A stretch of DNA of 60,041 bases from NCBI GenBank assembly GCA_945903605.1, contig CAMDOH010000006.1, forward strand, positions 1-60,041. Direction: 5' to 3'. The notes beneath the pieces were generated by a model. That model was not told where the DNA came from and did no database searches. It saw only the letters and a list, made by a program, of their open reading frames with translations. The stretch is from Akkermansia muciniphila (GTDB lineage Bacteria > Verrucomicrobiota > Verrucomicrobiia > Limisphaerales > UBA1100). Position numbers and translations under genes: made by a program. Of the stretch, positions 4,127 through 19,729 are shown piece after piece (position 1 is the stretch's first letter; each line of letters opens with the position of its first letter).

Positions 4127-5884
4127 ATGATTTCACAGAGCATTCCACTGGTAATCCCGCGGCCTGTCCCGAAGCAGATTTTCCGACCGCCCAAGAAAAA
4201 CATTCCGCAGACGGAAATTCAGCGGAACTTTATTTTAAACGCCGTGCGGAATTACGTTGCCGAGTTCAATCCGGTGCCGCCGATGCCGATGGAGGATCTG
4301 AAAGTACTCGCCGACCAGCTCATTGCCACACTCAAGCTCGATCCCATTTATCGCGATTACATTGGCGTCCTTCTCAACAACGAAATGTGGCGCGAGACGC
4401 TTGCCACCATTCCTTACGAACGCCGCCTGTTGCTACTGCCCAAATGTCTGCGAGTGGAAAGCAAATGTCCGGCGCCCTTCGATGAGTTTGGTCTGCTATG
4501 CAAACAGTGCGGACTTTGCACCATTCAAGATCTGCAAGGTGAGGCCGAACGACTGGGCTATCCGGTGCTCGTTGCCGAAGGATCAGCCATCGTGATGAGC
4601 CTCATTCAGACCGGCAAAATCGAAGCGATCGTCGGCGTGAGTTGCCTTTCAGTTTTGGAACGCGCCTTTCCGTACATGGAAGCGGCTGCTATTCCCGGCG
4701 TGGCCATACCGCTCCTGCAGGACGACTGCATGGATACCAACGTGGACATCGATTGGGTGTGGGACTACATCCACTTGACCAGCGACGACAAAACCCGGCG
4801 GCTGGATCTGGCGGCGTTGCGCGAAGAAGTCGATTCGTGGTTCACGACGGAATCGCTGGGGGAAATTCTGGGCGCTGCCGAAGGCGAGACGGAACGGATC
4901 GCGTCTGAATGGCTCTCTCGTGCCGGGAAACGCTGGCGTCCCTTTCTCACCGTGGCGGCATTCAAAGCACTGCGCGATTCCACAGACGCCCCGTTGCCGG
5001 AGGATTTGAAGAAGATCGCCGTGGCCATCGAGTGCTTCCACAAAGCATCGCTCATCCATGATGACATCGAAGACAACGATGCGGTGCGATATGGAGAAAA
5101 AACATTGCACGAAGAATACGGCGTTGCCATCGCGCTCAACGTCGGCGATTTGCTCATCGGCGAGGGCTATCGACTCATTGGCGATTCATCCATTTCTGCA
5201 GAACAAAAGACCGCGATGCTGACCGTCGCCGCCGAAGGCCAGCGGCTCCTTTGTCGAGGACAAGGCGCTGAACTCGTTTGGGCACGCCGCCCTTCACCGC
5301 TGAGTTCGCTGCAAGTGCTCGATATTTTCCGCAAGAAAACTGCGCCCGCCTTCGAAGTCGCACTGCAACTCGGCGCGATTTATGCCGGCACCGCGAAGCA
5401 CGAAGAAGTTTCAGAAGTCATCGCCGCGTACAGCGAGGCCCTCGGCATCGCCTACCAAATCCGCGACGACTTGAGCGATCTGGGAACTGGAGGCGATACG
5501 AATGACATCGCAGGGCTGCGGCCGAGCCTGCTGCTTGCCGTCGCTCACGAACGCGCGAATGACGAGACGAAGAAAAATATCCTCCATGCGCTCTGGCACC
5601 GGCAATCGACAGCCGGAGTGAACGCCGAACAGATCGAGGCCATTTATGTTGAGCTAAAAGCCGACGATCGTGCCCGCACGTTGCTTGAAACTTACAAAGA
5701 AGAGGCCATCCGCTCACTGCGCGACCTTGAAAATGCGAACCTGAAAGGACTGCTCCGGCGCGTGCTGGGCAAGATTTTCAACGACACAGAAATCAAAGGC
5801 TGGTGCAAAGAATTCGAGCAGAAGAATGGGATTGAGCGTTCGGCCGCTCCCGTCGCTGCGTCTGAACCGGCCATCGAAACGTAA
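4127..5884 (+). CDS. fusion: DUF116-like Cys-rich N-terminal domain plus trans-polyprenyl diphosphate synthase
   Basis: N-terminal CPAPFDEFGLLCKQCGLC and GVSCLSVL; C-terminal GKRWRPFL, HDDIEDND (first DDxxD) and QIRDDLSDL (second Asp-rich motif). Confidence 0.87.
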   Translation: MISQSIPLVIPRPVPKQIFRPPKKNIPQTEIQRNFILNAVRNYVAEFNPVPPMPMEDLKVLADQLIATLKLDPIYRDYIGVLLNNEMWRETLATIPYERRLLLLPKCLRVESKCPAPFDEFGLLCKQCGLCTIQDLQGEAERLGYPVLVAEGSAIVMSLIQTGKIEAIVGVSCLSVLERAFPYMEAAAIPGVAIPLLQDDCMDTNVDIDWVWDYIHLTSDDKTRRLDLAALREEVDSWFTTESLGEILGAAEGETERIASEWLSRAGKRWRPFLTVAAFKALRDSTDAPLPEDLKKIAVAIECFHKASLIHDDIEDNDAVRYGEKTLHEEYGVAIALNVGDLLIGEGYRLIGDSSISAEQKTAMLTVAAEGQRLLCRGQGAELVWARRPSPLSSLQVLDIFRKKTAPAFEVALQLGAIYAGTAKHEEVSEVIAAYSEALGIAYQIRDDLSDLGTGGDTNDIAGLRPSLLLAVAHERANDETKKNILHALWHRQSTAGVNAEQIEAIYVELKADDRARTLLETYKEEAIRSLRDLENANLKGLLRRVLGKIFNDTEIKGWCKEFEQKNGIERSAAPVAASEPAIET

Positions 5885-5905: not shown

Positions 5906-6790
5906 ATGAGCGTTCGGCTCCAGATGCTTCAAGTGGCACGGCTCGCCGGGCGGTCACTCGGCGATTCGTCCGAATTGGTCCGCGACTTTTTCCGCAGCCA
6001 GCTCTCGCCTGAAGGCGCCGGGTTCGATCGCGCAGGTCGCCCGGATCTGTACTACACCGTTTTCGCTTTGAACGGCTTCACCGCATTGCAAATGGAATTG
6101 CCGACGTCGCGAACCGAATCGTGGCTGCGCAGTTTCAACGATGGTGCTGGCTTGGATCTTGTCCATTTGAGTTCGCTGGCGCGTTGCTGGACTGCCATCG
6201 AGAGGAAACTGCCGTCGGATCTCGCCAAGAAATTGCTGGCGCGCATCGAAACTTTTCGCAAGCCCGACGGCGGTTACGATGTGAATCCTAAAAACCCGCA
6301 CGGCACGGCGTACGGAGCTTTTCTCGCTTTGGGCGCCTATCAGGACTTCGGCAAACTACCCCCGAAACCACTGAGCATCGTGCAAAGTTTGAAGCGGCTG
6401 GAGTCGGCTGATCATGCTTGGAACAACGCGCCGGGAATGCCAGTCGGCTCGACGAATCCCACGGCGGGCGCAGTCACGTTGCTGCGCCAGCTTCACTTGC
6501 CCGTCAATGATGCCGTCGGCCATTGGTTGCTTGCGCAGTTGCATCCGCAAGGCGGGTTCCTGGCTGTTCCCGGCGCACCGATGCCCGACTTGCTTTCCAC
6601 GGCGACAGCGTTGCATGCACTTTCGACACTTGAATTGCGACTCTCCGCCGAAGCACGCGAACGCTGTCTCGATTTTGTGGATTCGTTGTGGAGCGCGAAA
6701 GGCGGCTTTCACGGCCACTGGGCCGATGATCATCTGGATGCCGAATACACCTTCTACGGATTACTGGCGCTCGGCCATCTGAGTGTCTGA
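5906..6790 (+). CDS. prenyltransferase/squalene-oxidase-repeat (alpha-alpha toroid) protein
   Basis: Repeated GG-aromatic repeats (DGGYDVNPKNPHGTAYGAFLALGAY; QGGFLAVPGAPMPDLLSTATALHAL; KGGFHGHWADDHLDAEYTFYGLLALGHL). Confidence 0.78.
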   Translation: MSVRLQMLQVARLAGRSLGDSSELVRDFFRSQLSPEGAGFDRAGRPDLYYTVFALNGFTALQMELPTSRTESWLRSFNDGAGLDLVHLSSLARCWTAIERKLPSDLAKKLLARIETFRKPDGGYDVNPKNPHGTAYGAFLALGAYQDFGKLPPKPLSIVQSLKRLESADHAWNNAPGMPVGSTNPTAGAVTLLRQLHLPVNDAVGHWLLAQLHPQGGFLAVPGAPMPDLLSTATALHALSTLELRLSAEARERCLDFVDSLWSAKGGFHGHWADDHLDAEYTFYGLLALGHLSV

Positions 6791-12849: not shown

Positions 12850-14676
12850 ATGTCACGCCATCCACAGTTGACCGCCAATATCGATCCGACCTTTGGTGCA
12901 AAATCGCGAACCACTTGGGAAATTGTGGCTCGCGTGGCCATCTACCTCCGCCCTTATCCGTGGATGGCGCTGGGGACGGTCAGTTGTGCGTTGTTTTCAT
13001 TGGCCTTCGCCTTCTCGTATCCAAAACTGACGCAACACGTCATCGACGAAGTGATCGGCAATAAACGCACCGACCTACTTGCGCCCGTCATGCTTGTATT
13101 GTTGGGAGCGTTTGCGATGAGGGAGCTATTCAACAGCCTGCGTATTCGCATCAACAACGAACTTGAGCAGCACGTGATTCTCGACATGCGACGCGATGTC
13201 TATTCGCGGCTACAACGATTGCCCGTGGGCTACTTCGACCAGCGCGCCACAGGCGATTTGATGACTCGCGTGATCGAAGACGTGAACAGTGTCGAGCGAC
13301 TGCTAATCGATGGCACCGAGCAGGGAAGCGTCGCCATCTTGAGCATCATCGGCGTACTTGTGATCCTATTTTTGACCAGCGCAAAGTTAGCGCTCGTGGC
13401 GCTCTCACCCGTTCCGTTCCTGATAATCGGCGCGCTTTGGTACACGCTCACGGCTCATCACCGCTATCGCAAACAACGCGTCGCCTCCAGCGCGATGAAC
13501 GCGCTTCTGATGGACAACCTGCAAGGTGTGCGCCAAATCAAGGCATTCGGTCGCGAGCCGCACGAGGACGCGCGATTTCTTGACCGCGCCGAATCGCTTC
13601 GCGAGGGAACGCTCTCCGTGATGCGCGCGTGGGCGCTGTATTCACCGGCGATGACTCTGATCGCCTCTCTGGGAACGGGCCTTGTCCTTTGGGTCGGCGG
13701 CGGCATGGTGATCGCTGGCGAAATGACCGTCGGGACATTGATCGGGTTCATTTTTTATCTCGCGCTATTTTATGAGCCAGTCCGACAGTTGCACGGACTG
13801 AATCAGTTGCTGCAAGCCGCTCGCGCCGCCGGCGAACGTGTGTTCGACATTCTCGACACAACGGCGGAGGAAAGGCCACCGACCATCGCCACTTCAAAAC
13901 TTGATCATGCGCGCGGCGAGGTTGTGTATGAAAAAGTCTGTTTCAGCTACGGCTCAGAGCGGACGACTTTGAAAGACATTTCACTTCATGCCAAACCGGA
14001 TGAGATGATTGCGCTGGTTGGGCCGACTGGCGCGGGGAAAAGCACACTCGTGAATCTGCTCCCGGCATTTTACGAACACACCGCTGGCATAATCCGAATT
14101 GACGGTGTCGATATCCGATCGATGCGGCTCGAGTCGCTCCGTTCTCAAATCAGTGTGGTGAGTCAGGAACCGTTTCTTTTCAATGGATCGGTCCGTGAGA
14201 ATATTTTGTACGGAAAACTCGATGCCTCGGAAACTGAGTTGGCTACGGCCGCGAGTGCGGCCAACTGTCATGAATTCATCACTCAACTTTCTGAAGGCTA
14301 CGATACGCATGTGGGCGAGCGCGGAGTGAAGCTGAGCGTGGGAGAAAAGCAGCGTGTCTCCATTGCTCGCGCGCTGCTTGCCGACCGCCCCATCCTGATT
14401 CTTGATGAAGCCACGGCCAGCGTGGACACCGCAACCGAACGACTGATTCAAGAAGCGCTGGAGCGGCTGATGAAAGGTCGCACGAGTTTTGTCATCGCAC
14501 ACCGGCTCTCAACTATTCGTCATGCAAGCCAGATTCTCGTGATGCGACACGGTGAGATTGCTGAGCGCGGCACGCATGAAGAATTGATGGCGGTGAACGG
14601 CCTGTACGCCCAGCTTGCTCGAGTGCAGAACGTCACTTTCATCGAGGAGCAATTCGAGAAGCTGTCTCTTGTTTGA
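12850..14676 (+). CDS. ABC transporter ATP-binding/permease (MsbA-like exporter)
   Basis: TM domain then GPTGAGKSTLVNLL, LSVGEKQRVSIARALL, ILILDEATASVD; likely start MSRHPQL at 12850. Confidence 0.94.
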   Translation: MSRHPQLTANIDPTFGAKSRTTWEIVARVAIYLRPYPWMALGTVSCALFSLAFAFSYPKLTQHVIDEVIGNKRTDLLAPVMLVLLGAFAMRELFNSLRIRINNELEQHVILDMRRDVYSRLQRLPVGYFDQRATGDLMTRVIEDVNSVERLLIDGTEQGSVAILSIIGVLVILFLTSAKLALVALSPVPFLIIGALWYTLTAHHRYRKQRVASSAMNALLMDNLQGVRQIKAFGREPHEDARFLDRAESLREGTLSVMRAWALYSPAMTLIASLGTGLVLWVGGGMVIAGEMTVGTLIGFIFYLALFYEPVRQLHGLNQLLQAARAAGERVFDILDTTAEERPPTIATSKLDHARGEVVYEKVCFSYGSERTTLKDISLHAKPDEMIALVGPTGAGKSTLVNLLPAFYEHTAGIIRIDGVDIRSMRLESLRSQISVVSQEPFLFNGSVRENILYGKLDASETELATAASAANCHEFITQLSEGYDTHVGERGVKLSVGEKQRVSIARALLADRPILILDEATASVDTATERLIQEALERLMKGRTSFVIAHRLSTIRHASQILVMRHGEIAERGTHEELMAVNGLYAQLARVQNVTFIEEQFEKLSLV

Positions 14677-14694: not shown

Positions 14695-16839
14695 TCAGAT
14701 CAGATTTTTCAGTTCGCGATGGTTGACTTTGCCTGTCCCCAATTTCGGAATATCCCGCACATATTTCAACTCGCGCGGCAGGCAAAGATTGCTCAAGCCT
14801 TTGGCGCGGATGGCGGCTCGGATTTCCTCCAATGTGACCAATGAGTTGTTGGTGACGGCGATCATGACTTCGCCTTTGTCAATATCGGGGCGCGTGGCAA
14901 CGACCACTTCGGCATTCGCCGCCACATGCACAAAAACTCCGGCCAACGCTTCTTCTACAGCCGTGAGGCTCACCATCTCTCCACTGATTTTGGCGAATCG
15001 TTTGAGCCTGCCCAGCACGTGAATGCAGCCATCGGCATCTACTTTGACGATGTCGCCAGTGTCATACCAACCGCCGAGCGCCTGGAATTGCGCATTGGCA
15101 TCGGGGTTGAGATAGCCCTTCATGATGTTGGGTCCGCGGACAAAGAGGCGGCCGCCTTCGGCAACTCCTTCAACGCTTTCCAGTTTCCATTCGATGCGCG
15201 GCAAGATGCGCCCCGCTGTGCCGTGCATGATGTCACCAGGCGAATTGAAGGAGACAATCGGGCTGCATTCTGTGGCGCCGTAAGCTTCAAGAATTCGCAC
15301 GCCGAAACGCCGGCCCCAAATGGCGGCTGTGGATTCCTGAACTTTTTCCGCGCCTGCAAAGAGACAGCGGAGCGAGCGGAAATCATACGAGTGCGCCTTG
15401 CGCGCATAGCCATTGAGGAAGGTGTTCGTGCTGATCATGATTGTGCAATTGCGGTCGCTGAAGAGCATCGGAACGAGTCGGTAATGCAGTGGATTCGGGT
15501 AGAGAAAACAATAGATTCCGCGCACCAATGGAACCAACGTGCCGATGACGAACCCGGCACTGTGGAAAATGGGAAGGCAGTTGAAGAGGCGATCGCGGTC
15601 GCCAATGTCCGCCGCTGATAGAATTTGCCGAATGTTGGCGAGCAGATTTTGATGCGTCAATTCAACTGCCTTTGGCTGGCCTTCCGACCCGCTGGTGAAA
15701 AGAATGACGGCAGTGTCGGCAAAAGGAGTGTACCGCATCTGCGCCCAAGGCAGGAAACGATGGGCCAGCGCGGTCTTCAACTGGCTCATCTTGGGAATCT
15801 GTTTCGCGACATCTTCCAAATAAAGGAGCTGAATGCCGGCGGCTTGGAGCGGGCTGAGATCTAGTTTCTGTCGTTCGATAAACGCACGTGAGGTGACGAT
15901 CTGCCGTAGTCCAGCCAGATGAGCGCAGGCCAGCATCATGGGCGTGCCTGTGGTGAAATTAAGAATGGCCGGCACTCTTCCCGCAATCCACAGACTGAGA
16001 AAGACGATTGGCGCAGCGTTCACATTAGGGAGCAGCACTCCAATTCGGTTGTCCGTGCCGCAGAGTGCCGACCATCGTTCGGCAAGTAGATCTGCCCGGA
16101 CAAATACTTCGCGGAAGGTGAGTGATTTGTAGGTGTGATCTTCCAATGCATCAGCATGAGGTTGGGTACGTGCGGATTCAGCGGCGGCGAGCAATACTGT
16201 CGGCTGCCCCAATTTCATTTCCACATCGAACCGTTGGGTGATCATTTCTTGTCGGATCCAATTGGTAAGTCGGCGACGGGTTTCCAACCCTGAAAGACCC
16301 ACAAATGTCGGCGGCTGTTTCACCTCGCTGTAGTGGGCGGATATTTTGGTGAACGTTTTCTTCCAACCGCTGTGCGGAGAAAGCAGCACGCGCTCCGTAC
16401 CGCGCAAATAACAGAAAATGACTCTGGCGCGACTCTTCTGAAGCAGAAAGCCGGCACCTTCAAAGATCCTCATCAACGAACCCGTTTGCGAAAGTCGACC
16501 TTCTGGAAATAAAAGTAGCCGGCCTCCAGAGGACAGATGTTCGGAAACGCGCTTGAGCGAATAGGGCGACGCGGTGTCGATGGGATAGGTGCGCCCGTTC
16601 ACCATCAGATAACGGTGCAGCCACGAAGCCTGGGCAGTGGTGCTGGAGGAGATAAAGCGCCAGTCGCCGTCCAAGTCGGCAAGAATGAATAGCCAGTCAA
16701 TCCAGGAAACGTGATTGGCCAAGAGTAGAATTGGCCCGGGCGTTTTCAGAACCTCAATATTGGTGGAGTGGAATCGGAACAACACGCGCAATAAAAACCG
16801 CGCGAACGGGCCAAATAGAAATCTCTCGAACCAGTTCAT
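14695..16839 (-). CDS. aas: acyltransferase (PlsC-like)/acyl-ACP synthetase fusion, Aas-like
   Basis: N-terminal NHVSWIDWLFIL and FPEGRLSQTG (PlsC); C-terminal AMP-binding ILFTSGSEGQPKAVELTHQN and YDTGDIVKVD. Confidence 0.9.
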   Translation of the reverse strand: MNWFERFLFGPFARFLLRVLFRFHSTNIEVLKTPGPILLLANHVSWIDWLFILADLDGDWRFISSSTTAQASWLHRYLMVNGRTYPIDTASPYSLKRVSEHLSSGGRLLLFPEGRLSQTGSLMRIFEGAGFLLQKSRARVIFCYLRGTERVLLSPHSGWKKTFTKISAHYSEVKQPPTFVGLSGLETRRRLTNWIRQEMITQRFDVEMKLGQPTVLLAAAESARTQPHADALEDHTYKSLTFREVFVRADLLAERWSALCGTDNRIGVLLPNVNAAPIVFLSLWIAGRVPAILNFTTGTPMMLACAHLAGLRQIVTSRAFIERQKLDLSPLQAAGIQLLYLEDVAKQIPKMSQLKTALAHRFLPWAQMRYTPFADTAVILFTSGSEGQPKAVELTHQNLLANIRQILSAADIGDRDRLFNCLPIFHSAGFVIGTLVPLVRGIYCFLYPNPLHYRLVPMLFSDRNCTIMISTNTFLNGYARKAHSYDFRSLRCLFAGAEKVQESTAAIWGRRFGVRILEAYGATECSPIVSFNSPGDIMHGTAGRILPRIEWKLESVEGVAEGGRLFVRGPNIMKGYLNPDANAQFQALGGWYDTGDIVKVDADGCIHVLGRLKRFAKISGEMVSLTAVEEALAGVFVHVAANAEVVVATRPDIDKGEVMIAVTNNSLVTLEEIRAAIRAKGLSNLCLPRELKYVRDIPKLGTGKVNHRELKNLI

Positions 16840-17333
16840 CGGCGGCGCCTCTTCGTTGGGGTTGAGCGCTCTGAATACGACTGCCGCGCGATATTGGCGG
16901 CGGCAATCAACTTTTCCATTTGAGCATTGAGCTGTTTGGCTTCAGTCGCACTCAAGTGATCCAGCAGATGCTCGCCGGCAAGATAATGTTCAGGTCGGAT
17001 TTCATCAACCAAACGGCGCCCGCGCGCGGTGAGCTTGACGGCGTATGCGCGAGTGTCCTGCGAGTGATCCGTCCGCTGCAACAATCCTCTCGATTCCAAG
17101 CGCGGCAACTGACCCGTCACATTGGATCGATGCGTCAATAACTGGCGGCTGACTTCGATTTGCGTGCAACCTTGCGGGTATTCGTACAGTAGATTGAGGA
17201 CGTTGAATTGGCTTGAGGTCAAATGCCAGCGGCCAAAGAAGACTCTGCTGGCATCCCAGACCCCTTCCGAAGCGCGCAATAATTGGAGCAATGCGAGATA
17301 ACGCCAGCGGGTTGTCGAAGGGGCCTTGCTCAT
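16836..17333 (-). CDS. MarR family transcriptional regulator
   Basis: wHTH: TSSQFNVLNLLYEYPQGCTQIEVSRQLLTHRSNVTGQLPRLESRGLLQRTDHSQDTRAYAVKLTARG; 4-bp overlap with the downstream aas-like gene. Confidence 0.9.
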   Translation of the reverse strand: MSKAPSTTRWRYLALLQLLRASEGVWDASRVFFGRWHLTSSQFNVLNLLYEYPQGCTQIEVSRQLLTHRSNVTGQLPRLESRGLLQRTDHSQDTRAYAVKLTARGRRLVDEIRPEHYLAGEHLLDHLSATEAKQLNAQMEKLIAAANIARQSYSERSTPTKRRRR

Positions 17334-17371: not shown

Positions 17372-17464
17372 TGTTTTCAGCTTCTTAGCTCCATTCTGGA
17401 CATTTCCACATTGCCCGAATGGCACCAAAAAGAGTCTGCTCAACATTGTTGCGGAGAATAGCTC

Positions 17465-19729
17465 GTGTCAAAAAACTCTAATAATGGCTCTCATTCGCCA
17501 AGCCGCGCCACCTCATCGGACTTCTCCTGGCTGCCCCAAGACCAATGGCCATGGTCCACAGCTATTGTGCTGATGTCCGTAGTCTGGTTTTTCAGCGTGT
17601 TGGTTCGCCTAAATTGGATCGGCGACGCAACCCAGATTGACTCATTCATGTGGAATGGCGTTCCTCTCGTGACCACGAATGATAGCTACCTGTTCGGATC
17701 CATTGCGCAGAAGGCGATTGGTGGGACGGCATCAAACGTAGCCGACTGCCCGGGAATCTTGGATCATGGAATGATCACAGTGCTGCTGTTCGTGTCCGCC
17801 AAATGGACGGGCTTGAGCGTGGATACTCTGATGATCTGGCTGCCCGTATTCATCGGCGGAATAGTAGCGATCCCTGTTTTTCTGATTGGCCGACTCTTCG
17901 GTTCCACGCTGTGGGGATTTTGTGCCGCCGTGTTGGCGAGCGTGGCGCAGAGCTACTACAACCGTACGATGGCTGGATACTTCGACACGGATATGTTCTC
18001 CATCACTGTGCCCGCATTTGCCTTGTACTGTTTGCTTGCCGCGCACCGTAAGGAAAGTTTTGCATGGCTCACCGCTGGATCCGCCACTTTGTTCATCTAT
18101 CCTTTTTTTTATTTCCCCGGAGTGCCGATTGCTTATGCCTTGGCGCTCACCTTCGTAGGATTCCGGCTTCTGACTCGATTCCGACATCCGATGACATGGC
18201 AGTCCTTCTTACTCCTTGGACTGGCCGTGATGATTCTTGATGGATCAACGGGCAGAGCTATTGCGCGCGCCCCCTTGTTGTGGTTCGTGCGTGCAGCCAT
18301 CCTGTATGCAGCGTCAGTGATTCTTCAAAAGACTGCTGGCTCAATGCAAGTGCCATGGAGAAGTCGATCCGTGATGGCGGCCTGTGCGCTGACATGTCTG
18401 GGTGTGATTGTGTTCTCTGAACCGATCAAACACATTGGCCGTAGAACTTCTGAATACATTGGCGCGCGCTCCGAGCTATTGCCCCAATCTCCAGCGGATG
18501 GGCTGAATTTTTTCAAAGCTGGATCTTTGGTAGTCGAGGCGCAAACCGCCAACTCACTCCGCGAGAATATTGTCATCACGGCAAGGCGTGTGTCCGGTTC
18601 CCTCATTGGCGGAATTCTCGCAATTGCAGGTTTTGTTCTGCTCGTTTTTCACGCGAGAGAGTTTGCCATCGCTTTACCCTTCGTCGGATTTGCGTATCTG
18701 GCCATGCAGGGTGGGGAGCGATTCACTATTCATGCGGTGCCAATCGGAGCGCTTTCGGCCACGGCTATTTGCTTTTGGCTTCCAAACTTGATGATGAAGA
18801 AAGCGCCCGGCGCAGGGAAGATGATTGGCTTGGCCGTCTGCAGCCTCCTCCTTTTTGCCAATCTTCAACACGTCGCCGCGTATAAAACTTCTCCAGTGCT
18901 AGACAGCAAGTCCGTCGCCACACTGGCGCAAACTGCACCTAAGTCAGATGCAGGTGATTACCTGATCACTTGGTGGGATTATGGAACGGCGGCTTGGTAT
19001 TACTCCGGATTGAATACCGTCTGTAATCCCGGAAATCAAAACTCCGACATTTATCTCGTTGCTAAGATTCTCAATTCGCCATCGCAGGCACTTGCCGCAA
19101 ATCTGACGAAGGTCGCAATCGAGACTCACGCGGAAGCGTCACCCAGCCGTCCTGTGATTCGGCGACTGCTCAAGCCGCACGTCAAATCAATCGCTGGACT
19201 CGATGGGTTTTTCTCCGAGGTCAGTTCAACGAATTATTTGGCTCCGGCCAAAACCCGGGAGACATACCTGTTCCTCAATCATCAGATGTTAAATTTCATT
19301 CCCGCCATGCGACTTTTTAGTGAGCGGGATTTGTTGACCGGCGAGCCTCACCCCGGTCGTACGTTCATCTCATTTAACGATTGGAAAAGTGATGGCCAGA
19401 TTCTGCAGGCAACAAGGGGGGCCATTCGGATGCAAGTGGACAGGAAAAATCTCCAAGCCACGCTTGATGATGGACGCCAATTCGCTCTCAACAACTTTGA
19501 CTACATTCCGGCTGCGCAAGCAGGCCGACTGTCCATCAAAAGGCAGTCAGGCCATCCGACATCTCCGTTCCGTTTGGTCATTCGCGAAGAACCGCCGCTC
19601 TGCATTCTCATGGAAGAAGACATCTTCCATTCCAATTTTGTGCAGATGTATTTGTACGAATCCTTCGATGCAGAACGGTTCGAGCGCGTAGCGGGAAACC
19701 CGTACGCCATCATGTACCGCGTGAAATAA
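17465..19729 (+). CDS. pglB: PglB/STT3-type oligosaccharyltransferase
   Basis: TNDSYLF; YNRTMAGYFDTDM; QGGERFTIHAVP; GDYLITWWDYGTAAWYYS; FVQMYLYESFDAERF; multi-TM N-terminus and soluble C-terminus. Confidence 0.9.
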   Translation: MSKNSNNGSHSPSRATSSDFSWLPQDQWPWSTAIVLMSVVWFFSVLVRLNWIGDATQIDSFMWNGVPLVTTNDSYLFGSIAQKAIGGTASNVADCPGILDHGMITVLLFVSAKWTGLSVDTLMIWLPVFIGGIVAIPVFLIGRLFGSTLWGFCAAVLASVAQSYYNRTMAGYFDTDMFSITVPAFALYCLLAAHRKESFAWLTAGSATLFIYPFFYFPGVPIAYALALTFVGFRLLTRFRHPMTWQSFLLLGLAVMILDGSTGRAIARAPLLWFVRAAILYAASVILQKTAGSMQVPWRSRSVMAACALTCLGVIVFSEPIKHIGRRTSEYIGARSELLPQSPADGLNFFKAGSLVVEAQTANSLRENIVITARRVSGSLIGGILAIAGFVLLVFHAREFAIALPFVGFAYLAMQGGERFTIHAVPIGALSATAICFWLPNLMMKKAPGAGKMIGLAVCSLLLFANLQHVAAYKTSPVLDSKSVATLAQTAPKSDAGDYLITWWDYGTAAWYYSGLNTVCNPGNQNSDIYLVAKILNSPSQALAANLTKVAIETHAEASPSRPVIRRLLKPHVKSIAGLDGFFSEVSSTNYLAPAKTRETYLFLNHQMLNFIPAMRLFSERDLLTGEPHPGRTFISFNDWKSDGQILQATRGAIRMQVDRKNLQATLDDGRQFALNNFDYIPAAQAGRLSIKRQSGHPTSPFRLVIREEPPLCILMEEDIFHSNFVQMYLYESFDAERFERVAGNPYAIMYRVK

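Follow-up and report, generated by a model that had tools for sequence, protein, structure and literature searches.

A PglB-type oligosaccharyltransferase from a branch of Verrucomicrobiota and Phycisphaerae in which the Tyr468 site of the Campylobacter enzyme is replaced

The stretch of DNA analyzed here (60,041 nucleotides, hereafter the window) contains a gene that almost certainly belongs to the family of PglB-type oligosaccharyltransferases (OSTs). In our main reading, which we consider probable, its product is a single-subunit OST of the inner membrane that modifies N-X-S/T sites of exported proteins, with a donor sugar that probably differs from that of Campylobacter or is bound in another way. 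The position of Tyr468 of Campylobacter lari PglB (ClPglB) and a nearby loop, both associated with the site for the reducing sugar, are replaced in the window protein and in all of its readable relatives among the Verrucomicrobiota and Phycisphaerae.

Identification and predicted fold

The open reading frame has a GTG start and no internal stops (Table 1). Both Pfam profiles of the family exceed their curated cut-offs, STT3 (PF02516) with 69.1 bits (cut-off 24.5) and STT3-PglB_core (PF21436) with 81.5 bits (cut-off 23), and the NCBIfam model ProtGlycPglB (NF050801) matches residues 30-754 with 268.6 bits, against 24.5 bits for archaeo_STT3. The score stays below the equivalog cut-off of NF050801 for Campylobacter PglB (1300 bits). 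In phmmer searches the protein aligns end-to-end with C. lari PglB (5ogl; E 2.5e-62, residues 32-754), and its PDB matches are to PglB only. An earlier note on this DNA had called the gene PglB-type from short motifs, all of which are present, and had asked for a search with STT3 and PglB profiles, which bears the assignment out. Its description of the genome as PVC-like agrees with the named relatives of both gene and locus, which are Verrucomicrobiota.

An AlphaFold2 model (mean pLDDT 88.1, pTM 0.89), for which the input alignment consisted of the window protein and the sequences from related loci, shows a GT-C fold with an N-terminal multi-transmembrane domain and a C-terminal periplasmic domain. 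The best PDB folds in Foldseek are PglB-substrate complexes with lipid-linked oligosaccharide and peptide (6gxc, 5ogl), with a TM score of 0.83 by query and 0.89 by target and 23% identity in the fold alignment to PglB. AglB (TM 0.57) ranks lower, followed by human and yeast STT3, the C-mannosyltransferase DPY19 (0.46) and ArnT (0.35). The fold search thus places PglB first and other GT-C enzymes far behind, so that the outcome named in the earlier note as its refutation, a grouping with O-mannosyl enzymes or with further members of the GT-C class, is unsupported. Judged by its sequence, the protein is of the bacterial single-subunit PglB type, nearer to PglB than to AglB or Stt3. It is the sole STT3 detected in its own genome (2.68 Mb); absences reported here for that genome refer to family searches and single stretches, at a completeness of 92%.

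Table 1. Features of the OST gene and its neighbours in the window.
Feature	Position	Strand	Basis or remark
ABC exporter, MsbA-like	12862..14676	+	order-wide core gene, with or without OST
Aas-like acyltransferase / acyl-ACP ligase	14695..16839	-	kept neighbour in L028 and L029 (58-60%)
MarR-type regulator, divergent from OST gene	16836..17333	-	also adjoins OST in L028 and L029 (~49% identity)
GGAG ribosome-binding-like site, 8 nt 5' of GTG start	17453..17456	+	sequence read directly
PglB-type oligosaccharyltransferase gene, 754 aa	17465..19729	+	ORF, Pfam, ClPglB alignment, AlphaFold2 and fold match
Transmembrane GT-C domain, residues 30-472	17552..18880	+	AlphaFold2 predicted helices and ClPglB alignment
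Asp73 (ClPglB Asp56)	17681..17683	+	ClPglB alignment; invariant in 34 sequences
YNRTMAGYFDTDM: Arg167, Asp174, Asp176 (ClPglB R147, D154, D156)	17957..17995	+	alignment; invariant in 34 sequences
EL5 motif LVVE, Glu358 (ClPglB E319)	18527..18538	+	alignment; Glu invariant in 34 sequences
Arg375 (ClPglB R331)	18587..18589	+	alignment
Arg419 (ClPglB R375)	18719..18721	+	alignment
C-terminal periplasmic domain, residues 473-754	18881..19726	+	AlphaFold2 mixed helix/strand; alignment to C. jejuni PglB C-terminal domain 3aag
WWDYGT: WWD of the sequon site intact, Thr508 in place of Tyr468	18971..18988	+	ungapped alignment to ClPglB
NPGNQ replacing ClPglB D481-G-G-K-H485	19025..19039	+	ungapped ClPglB alignment
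MLNF at MxxI position (ClPglB M569-I572)	19286..19297	+	alignment

Metal, pyrophosphate and peptide sites

Residue equivalences were counted along the phmmer alignment of the window protein with ClPglB. In addition to those listed in Table 1, Y196 corresponds to Y216 and W463-W464-D465 to W503-W504-D505. Among 34 aligned PglBs, the equivalents of D56, R147, D154, D156, Y196, E319, R331, R375 and the WWD are invariant. In ClPglB, R375 is a pyrophosphate contact (PMC6215017), and R331 contacts the acidic residue at position -2 in Campylobacter PglB (PMC4894442, PMC8479172), although this arginine alone does not enforce an acidic residue there (PMC4894442).

The MxxI motif is absent from the window protein, which reads M608-L-N-F611 with Phe611 in place of I572; both positions vary among the relatives too. 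The position of ClPglB Thr316 is Leu355 in the window protein only, and Thr in the other 33 of the 34 sequences. As I572 and T316 of ClPglB both contact the Thr at +2 (PMC8479172), the preference of the window enzyme for Thr over Ser at this position may have changed.

The reducing-sugar site

The reading of motifs in the earlier note, correct for each motif that it quoted, had overlooked the replacements of Tyr468 by Thr508 and of I572 by Phe611 that appear in the alignment to ClPglB. In Campylobacterota, the Tyr468 position is occupied by Tyr in all 24 readable rows and the loop reads DG(G/S)KH. Among Verrucomicrobiota and Phycisphaerae it is Ser, Thr or Gly in 46 of 46 rows read, 45 of them through a motif scan and one (L098) through the alignment, because the scan had picked the wrong WW. 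Verrucomicrobiota have Ser (38), Thr (3) or Gly (2) and, in all readable loops, P-x-x-Q; Phycisphaerae have Ser and the loop PIS(V/A). Some archaeal AglBs with hexose-first donors may carry a similar N-P-x-Q stretch.

Tyr468 of C. lari PglB has been called strictly conserved and essential (PMC6215017) and is retained in yeast Stt3 (PMC7226087), and mutagenesis of the C. jejuni enzyme linked the D481-H485 loop to the same sugar site (PMC3527161). Because Tyr468 and the loop are both replaced, the donor sugar is probably unlike that of Campylobacter, or is held differently. The replacement extends across the clade and lies on the sugar side, with peptide- and metal-binding residues mostly kept, so that the branch as a whole would recognize the first sugar differently, an interpretation that we favor by a little over even odds. 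A broader proposal is put forward more tentatively, namely that Verrucomicrobiota and Phycisphaerae have a PglB branch of their own that performs N-glycosylation with a rebuilt site, its first sugar lacking the Tyr468/N-acetyl contact of the Campylobacter and eukaryote type. As C. lari PglB reportedly depends on Tyr468, an enzyme that lacks this residue could alternatively have low activity or catalyze a different reaction.

It is conceivable that the window protein is an ordinary PglB with Campylobacter-like specificity (a reducing sugar of GlcNAc or diNAcBac type and D/E-X-N-X-S/T sites), in which the changes at Tyr468 and the loop are neutral and other residues compensate. All other catalytic residues are retained, R331 included, and a PF02719/PseB-like UDP-GlcNAc dehydratase and a DegT protein (diamino-sugar type) are encoded next to PglB in several relatives, consistent with such an enzyme; yet Tyr468 and the DGGKH loop are absent from every readable sequence of the branch, and the residue concerned is the one described as strictly conserved and essential in C. 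lari and kept in yeast, which makes an unchanged specificity unlikely.

Sequons and putative targets

Under the preferred reading of an N-glycosylating enzyme with a probably changed donor sugar, exported proteins with N-X-S/T sites would be the acceptors, and periplasmic N-glycosylation by the window enzyme is in our view likely. The exported DUF1501, DUF1553 and cytochrome proteins of the window, suggested as targets in the earlier note, proved to be poor in sequons: 12 exported-type ORFs (six of them DUF1501; 6,737 aa) contain 25 N-X-S/T and 4 D/E-X-N-X-S/T sites, and one full DUF1501 protein has none. DUF1501 and DUF1553 proteins as the main targets are therefore unsupported, and this idea was set aside.

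Predicted exported proteins of the whole window genome, with signal peptides assigned by a crude rule, contain 7 D/E-X-N-X-S/T sites against 20.4 expected. By the same rule, OST-negative members of the order have 6 against 14.3 expected, with depletion of a control pattern too, and the OST carriers of family f8 are less depleted (9 against 12.2). Since OST-negative relatives and the control pattern show the depletion as well, and the f8 carriers show it more weakly, it is no evidence for OST activity, and the argument from sequon avoidance was rejected.

A GT-C enzyme of STT3 fold that acts on a different acceptor, such as Ser/Thr, a lipid or a cell-wall polymer, would be in line with the sequon-poor neighbours, the lack of an OST-specific signal in these counts and the rebuilt reducing-sugar site. 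We judge it highly unlikely, given that ClPglB holds the N-X-S/T peptide through WWD, E319, R331 and D56, whose counterparts are unchanged in every aligned member of the branch, and that PglB is the top fold match by a wide margin.

Phylogeny and distribution

In an unrooted IQ-TREE phylogeny of 47 sequences, in which the terminal branch of the window protein is long, a branch with 100/100 support splits the Campylobacterota (with one Acidobacteria-labelled contig) from all Verrucomicrobiota and Phycisphaerae. The window protein forms a 100/100 group with those of loci L028 and L029, and AU tests reject the joining of this trio to either of two named Campylobacterota groups. Identity to Campylobacterota PglBs is 28-33%. 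L028 and L029 are labelled Akkermansia muciniphila and are identical with contigs of genomes G026 and G529, which belong to the window's order; the labels are doubtful.

A search with the PglB profile matched 12 of 293 genomes of the window's order, 10 in its own family (f1, the window genome included) and 2 in f8, and among 390 genomes drawn from the phylum only three others gave a clear STT3 match, those placed in the tree being remote. The named genomes that were scanned yielded matches in Campylobacterota, in Verrucomicrobiota (many of them from marine Opitutales, plus a Pedosphaera-labelled MAG) and in Phycisphaerae. The earlier note, which had described the gene as isolated and the family as best known in Campylobacterota, Archaea and eukaryotes, thus understated the distribution, as a Verrucomicrobiota/Phycisphaerae branch with a changed sugar site exists. 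No earlier description of PglB in Verrucomicrobiota or Planctomycetota was found among the open-access papers that were searched, which is a weak absence.

The rarity of the gene (12 of 293 genomes of the order, in two families only, with remote homologs in the phylum draw) might point to a gene recently acquired by horizontal transfer from Campylobacterota, or to a stray one without function, but the separate 100/100 branch, the AU tests, the MarR/Aas/ABC locus shared by three genomes of two families and an unbroken ORF that retains every residue of the metal and peptide sites stand against this, and we give it next to no credence, the tree and the shared locus having largely refuted it already.

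Other PglBs of f1 (approximately 29-35% identity) measure 845-1624 aa and belong to different subfamilies at different loci. Homologs of 1603-1624 aa (L024:6389-11200 in G005, L025:8088-12962 in G001, and also L077 and L081) have several hundred added residues that separate the WWDYG region from the transmembrane part. The marine Opitutales (L053-L101) have a large subfamily of 1036-1140 aa, with no recognizable glycan genes nearby among the references tested. At L015:7941-9938 (G013:C9) the PglB frame is broken by several stops and is intact in close relatives, indicating a possible pseudogene or an assembly error. Remote STT3-like proteins that fall well outside the PglB branch occur elsewhere in the phylum at L128, L155 (G335) and L130 (G188), with two in G335. 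The PglB of L055, labelled Euryarchaeota archaeon SAT1553, is nearly identical to that of L052 from Verrucomicrobiales, and this label is doubtful.

Genomic context and glycan-pathway genes

The gene order ABC-Aas-MarR-OST is shared with L028 (G026) and L029, which belong to a different family within the window's order, with identities to the window genes of 72-74% for the ABC exporter, 58-60% for Aas, 49% for MarR and 44-45% for the OST. From these values, the locus would appear to be shared by descent, with an OST that is probably fast-evolving. UvrD also lies in the OST neighbourhood, with the MsbA-like ABC exporter. This exporter, 2.8 kb from the OST, was considered as a dedicated PglK-like flippase and rejected (MsbA 465 bits vs PglK 162, with ABCB proteins as the best matches). 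Copies that are 65-76% identical are present in nearly all members of the order, whether or not these have an OST; as a core gene of the order, it therefore falls outside the glycosylation system.

Within the window, no glycan assembly or flippase genes adjoin the OST, and the statement in the earlier note that no glycosyltransferase cluster is adjacent is correct for this stretch. Elsewhere in the window, a 585-aa protein (4127-5884) fuses DUF116 with a polyprenyl synthetase domain and is followed by a prenyltransferase-toroid protein (5906-6790).

The earlier note had suggested that the glycan is made elsewhere, which is plausible: there are candidate genes in the own genome, and PglBs of relatives lie inside glycan clusters. 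The candidates are a WecA-like PNPT on contig C28, a Wzx-like protein on C2 that adjoins an epimerase, an FkbM methyltransferase and a GT2, and a cluster on C15 with a UDP-sugar dehydrogenase, two GT4, DegT, methyltransferases and GT2. The Wzx-like protein scores at the cut-off of PF01943 (29.2 in one search, 28.1 vs 28.2 in another). The scan for flippases and PglC-like enzymes proposed in the earlier note thus meets a Wzx-like and a WecA-like protein, but PglC-type PF02397 was not found by family search in the 92%-complete genome and both of its ABC exporters look unlike PglK; the second (C46) was rejected as PglK because its best PDB matches are ABCB/MsbA types, and it adjoins an MBOAT-like gene. 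An O-antigen-ligase-like protein is encoded on C33, and the scattered WecA-like, GT4 and Wzx-like genes could serve O-antigen, exopolysaccharide or other surface glycans. At the end of the C15 glycan cluster (L158:17578-20000, continued in L163; G000:C15:17578-20154), an 858-aa protein with approximately 12 transmembrane segments is encoded, the first 807 aa of which matched no Pfam or NCBIfam family.

The OST gene of f1 relatives adjoins an RfaH/UpxY-like antiterminator gene on the opposite strand, beyond which lie genes for UDP-sugar dehydrogenases, PF02719, DegT, GT4 or asparagine-synthase-like proteins. The PglB cluster of G006 contains an RfaH-like gene, two DegT aminotransferases, a NeuD-type acyltransferase, an epimerase and an ABC protein. 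For the ABC protein, C. jejuni PglK/WlaB is the top match in the PDB (E 2.2e-82) and PglK the top NCBIfam model (305 bits, under the equivalog cut-off; MsbA 239). In G026, which has the orthologue of the window OST at the corresponding locus, the adjacent genes encode a GT4, a PF02397 protein of PglC-like type and a PF02719 protein that carries a PseB-like domain. In 4 of 4 Phycisphaerae loci, the OST is immediately preceded by the end of a DegT gene.

Proposed mechanism

We infer the activity of the enzyme, the N-linkage, the donor, the partners and the targets as follows. The donor would most likely be a glycan that is preassembled on undecaprenyl pyrophosphate and, once flipped to the periplasmic side, transferred en bloc to the Asn of N-X-S/T in exported proteins. 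In the window enzyme, D73, D174, D176 and E358 would serve the metal and the acceptor Asn, R419 and Y216 the pyrophosphate, and the WWD would bind the Ser/Thr at +2, with R375 giving a possible preference at -2. The glycan itself may be started by the WecA-like protein and extended by the glycosyltransferases of C15, with the Wzx-like protein as its flippase.

Comparison with known systems

N-glycosylation by bacterial PglB has so far been described from Campylobacterota and from a few Deltaproteobacteria and Aquificae. The distinct branch suggests a little-studied form of bacterial N-glycosylation with a different sugar preference, and extends PglB to Verrucomicrobiota and Phycisphaerae, several of them marine, which have unusual envelopes and in which protein glycosylation is hardly known. 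Because a residue held to be indispensable and strictly conserved is consistently replaced, the branch provides a direct way to test how OSTs select the first sugar. It is also a possible source of enzymes for glycans that Campylobacter PglB refuses, a known limit of glycoconjugate production.

Like the PglBs of C. lari and C. jejuni (GT66; 3rce, 5ogl, 6gxc, 3aag), the window protein has their length, two-domain architecture and fold, and it keeps the metal- and peptide-binding residues, the equivalents of R331, R375 and Y196, and the WWDYG. In contrast to these enzymes, it has Thr508, NPGNQ, Phe611 and Leu355 for Tyr468, DGGKH, I572 and T316, is encoded by a single gene without an adjacent pgl cluster, and lies on a different branch of the tree. 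The PglB homologs of Desulfovibrio, Geobacter and Aquificae are, by their published description, likewise bacterial OSTs from beyond the Campylobacterota; some of them keep R331 and have a relaxed preference at -2, and that description names epsilonproteobacteria, deltaproteobacteria and aquificae only (PMC4894442). Archaeal AglB and eukaryotic STT3 belong to the same superfamily and were matched by fold (PDB 7e9s, 6s7t), but differ from the window OST in a fold TM of only 0.57 and in the much lower archaeo_STT3 score given above.

With respect to gene organization, the C. jejuni pgl locus (pglK, pglC, pglF, pglE, pglD, pglB) finds its counterpart in relatives from the window's order, in which PglB adjoins PglK-, PglC-, PglF-, DegT- or NeuD-like genes. 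Unlike that locus, the window OST stands apart from such neighbours, in a genome lacking PF02397, and seems to rely on enzymes of the WecA and Wzx types encoded elsewhere.
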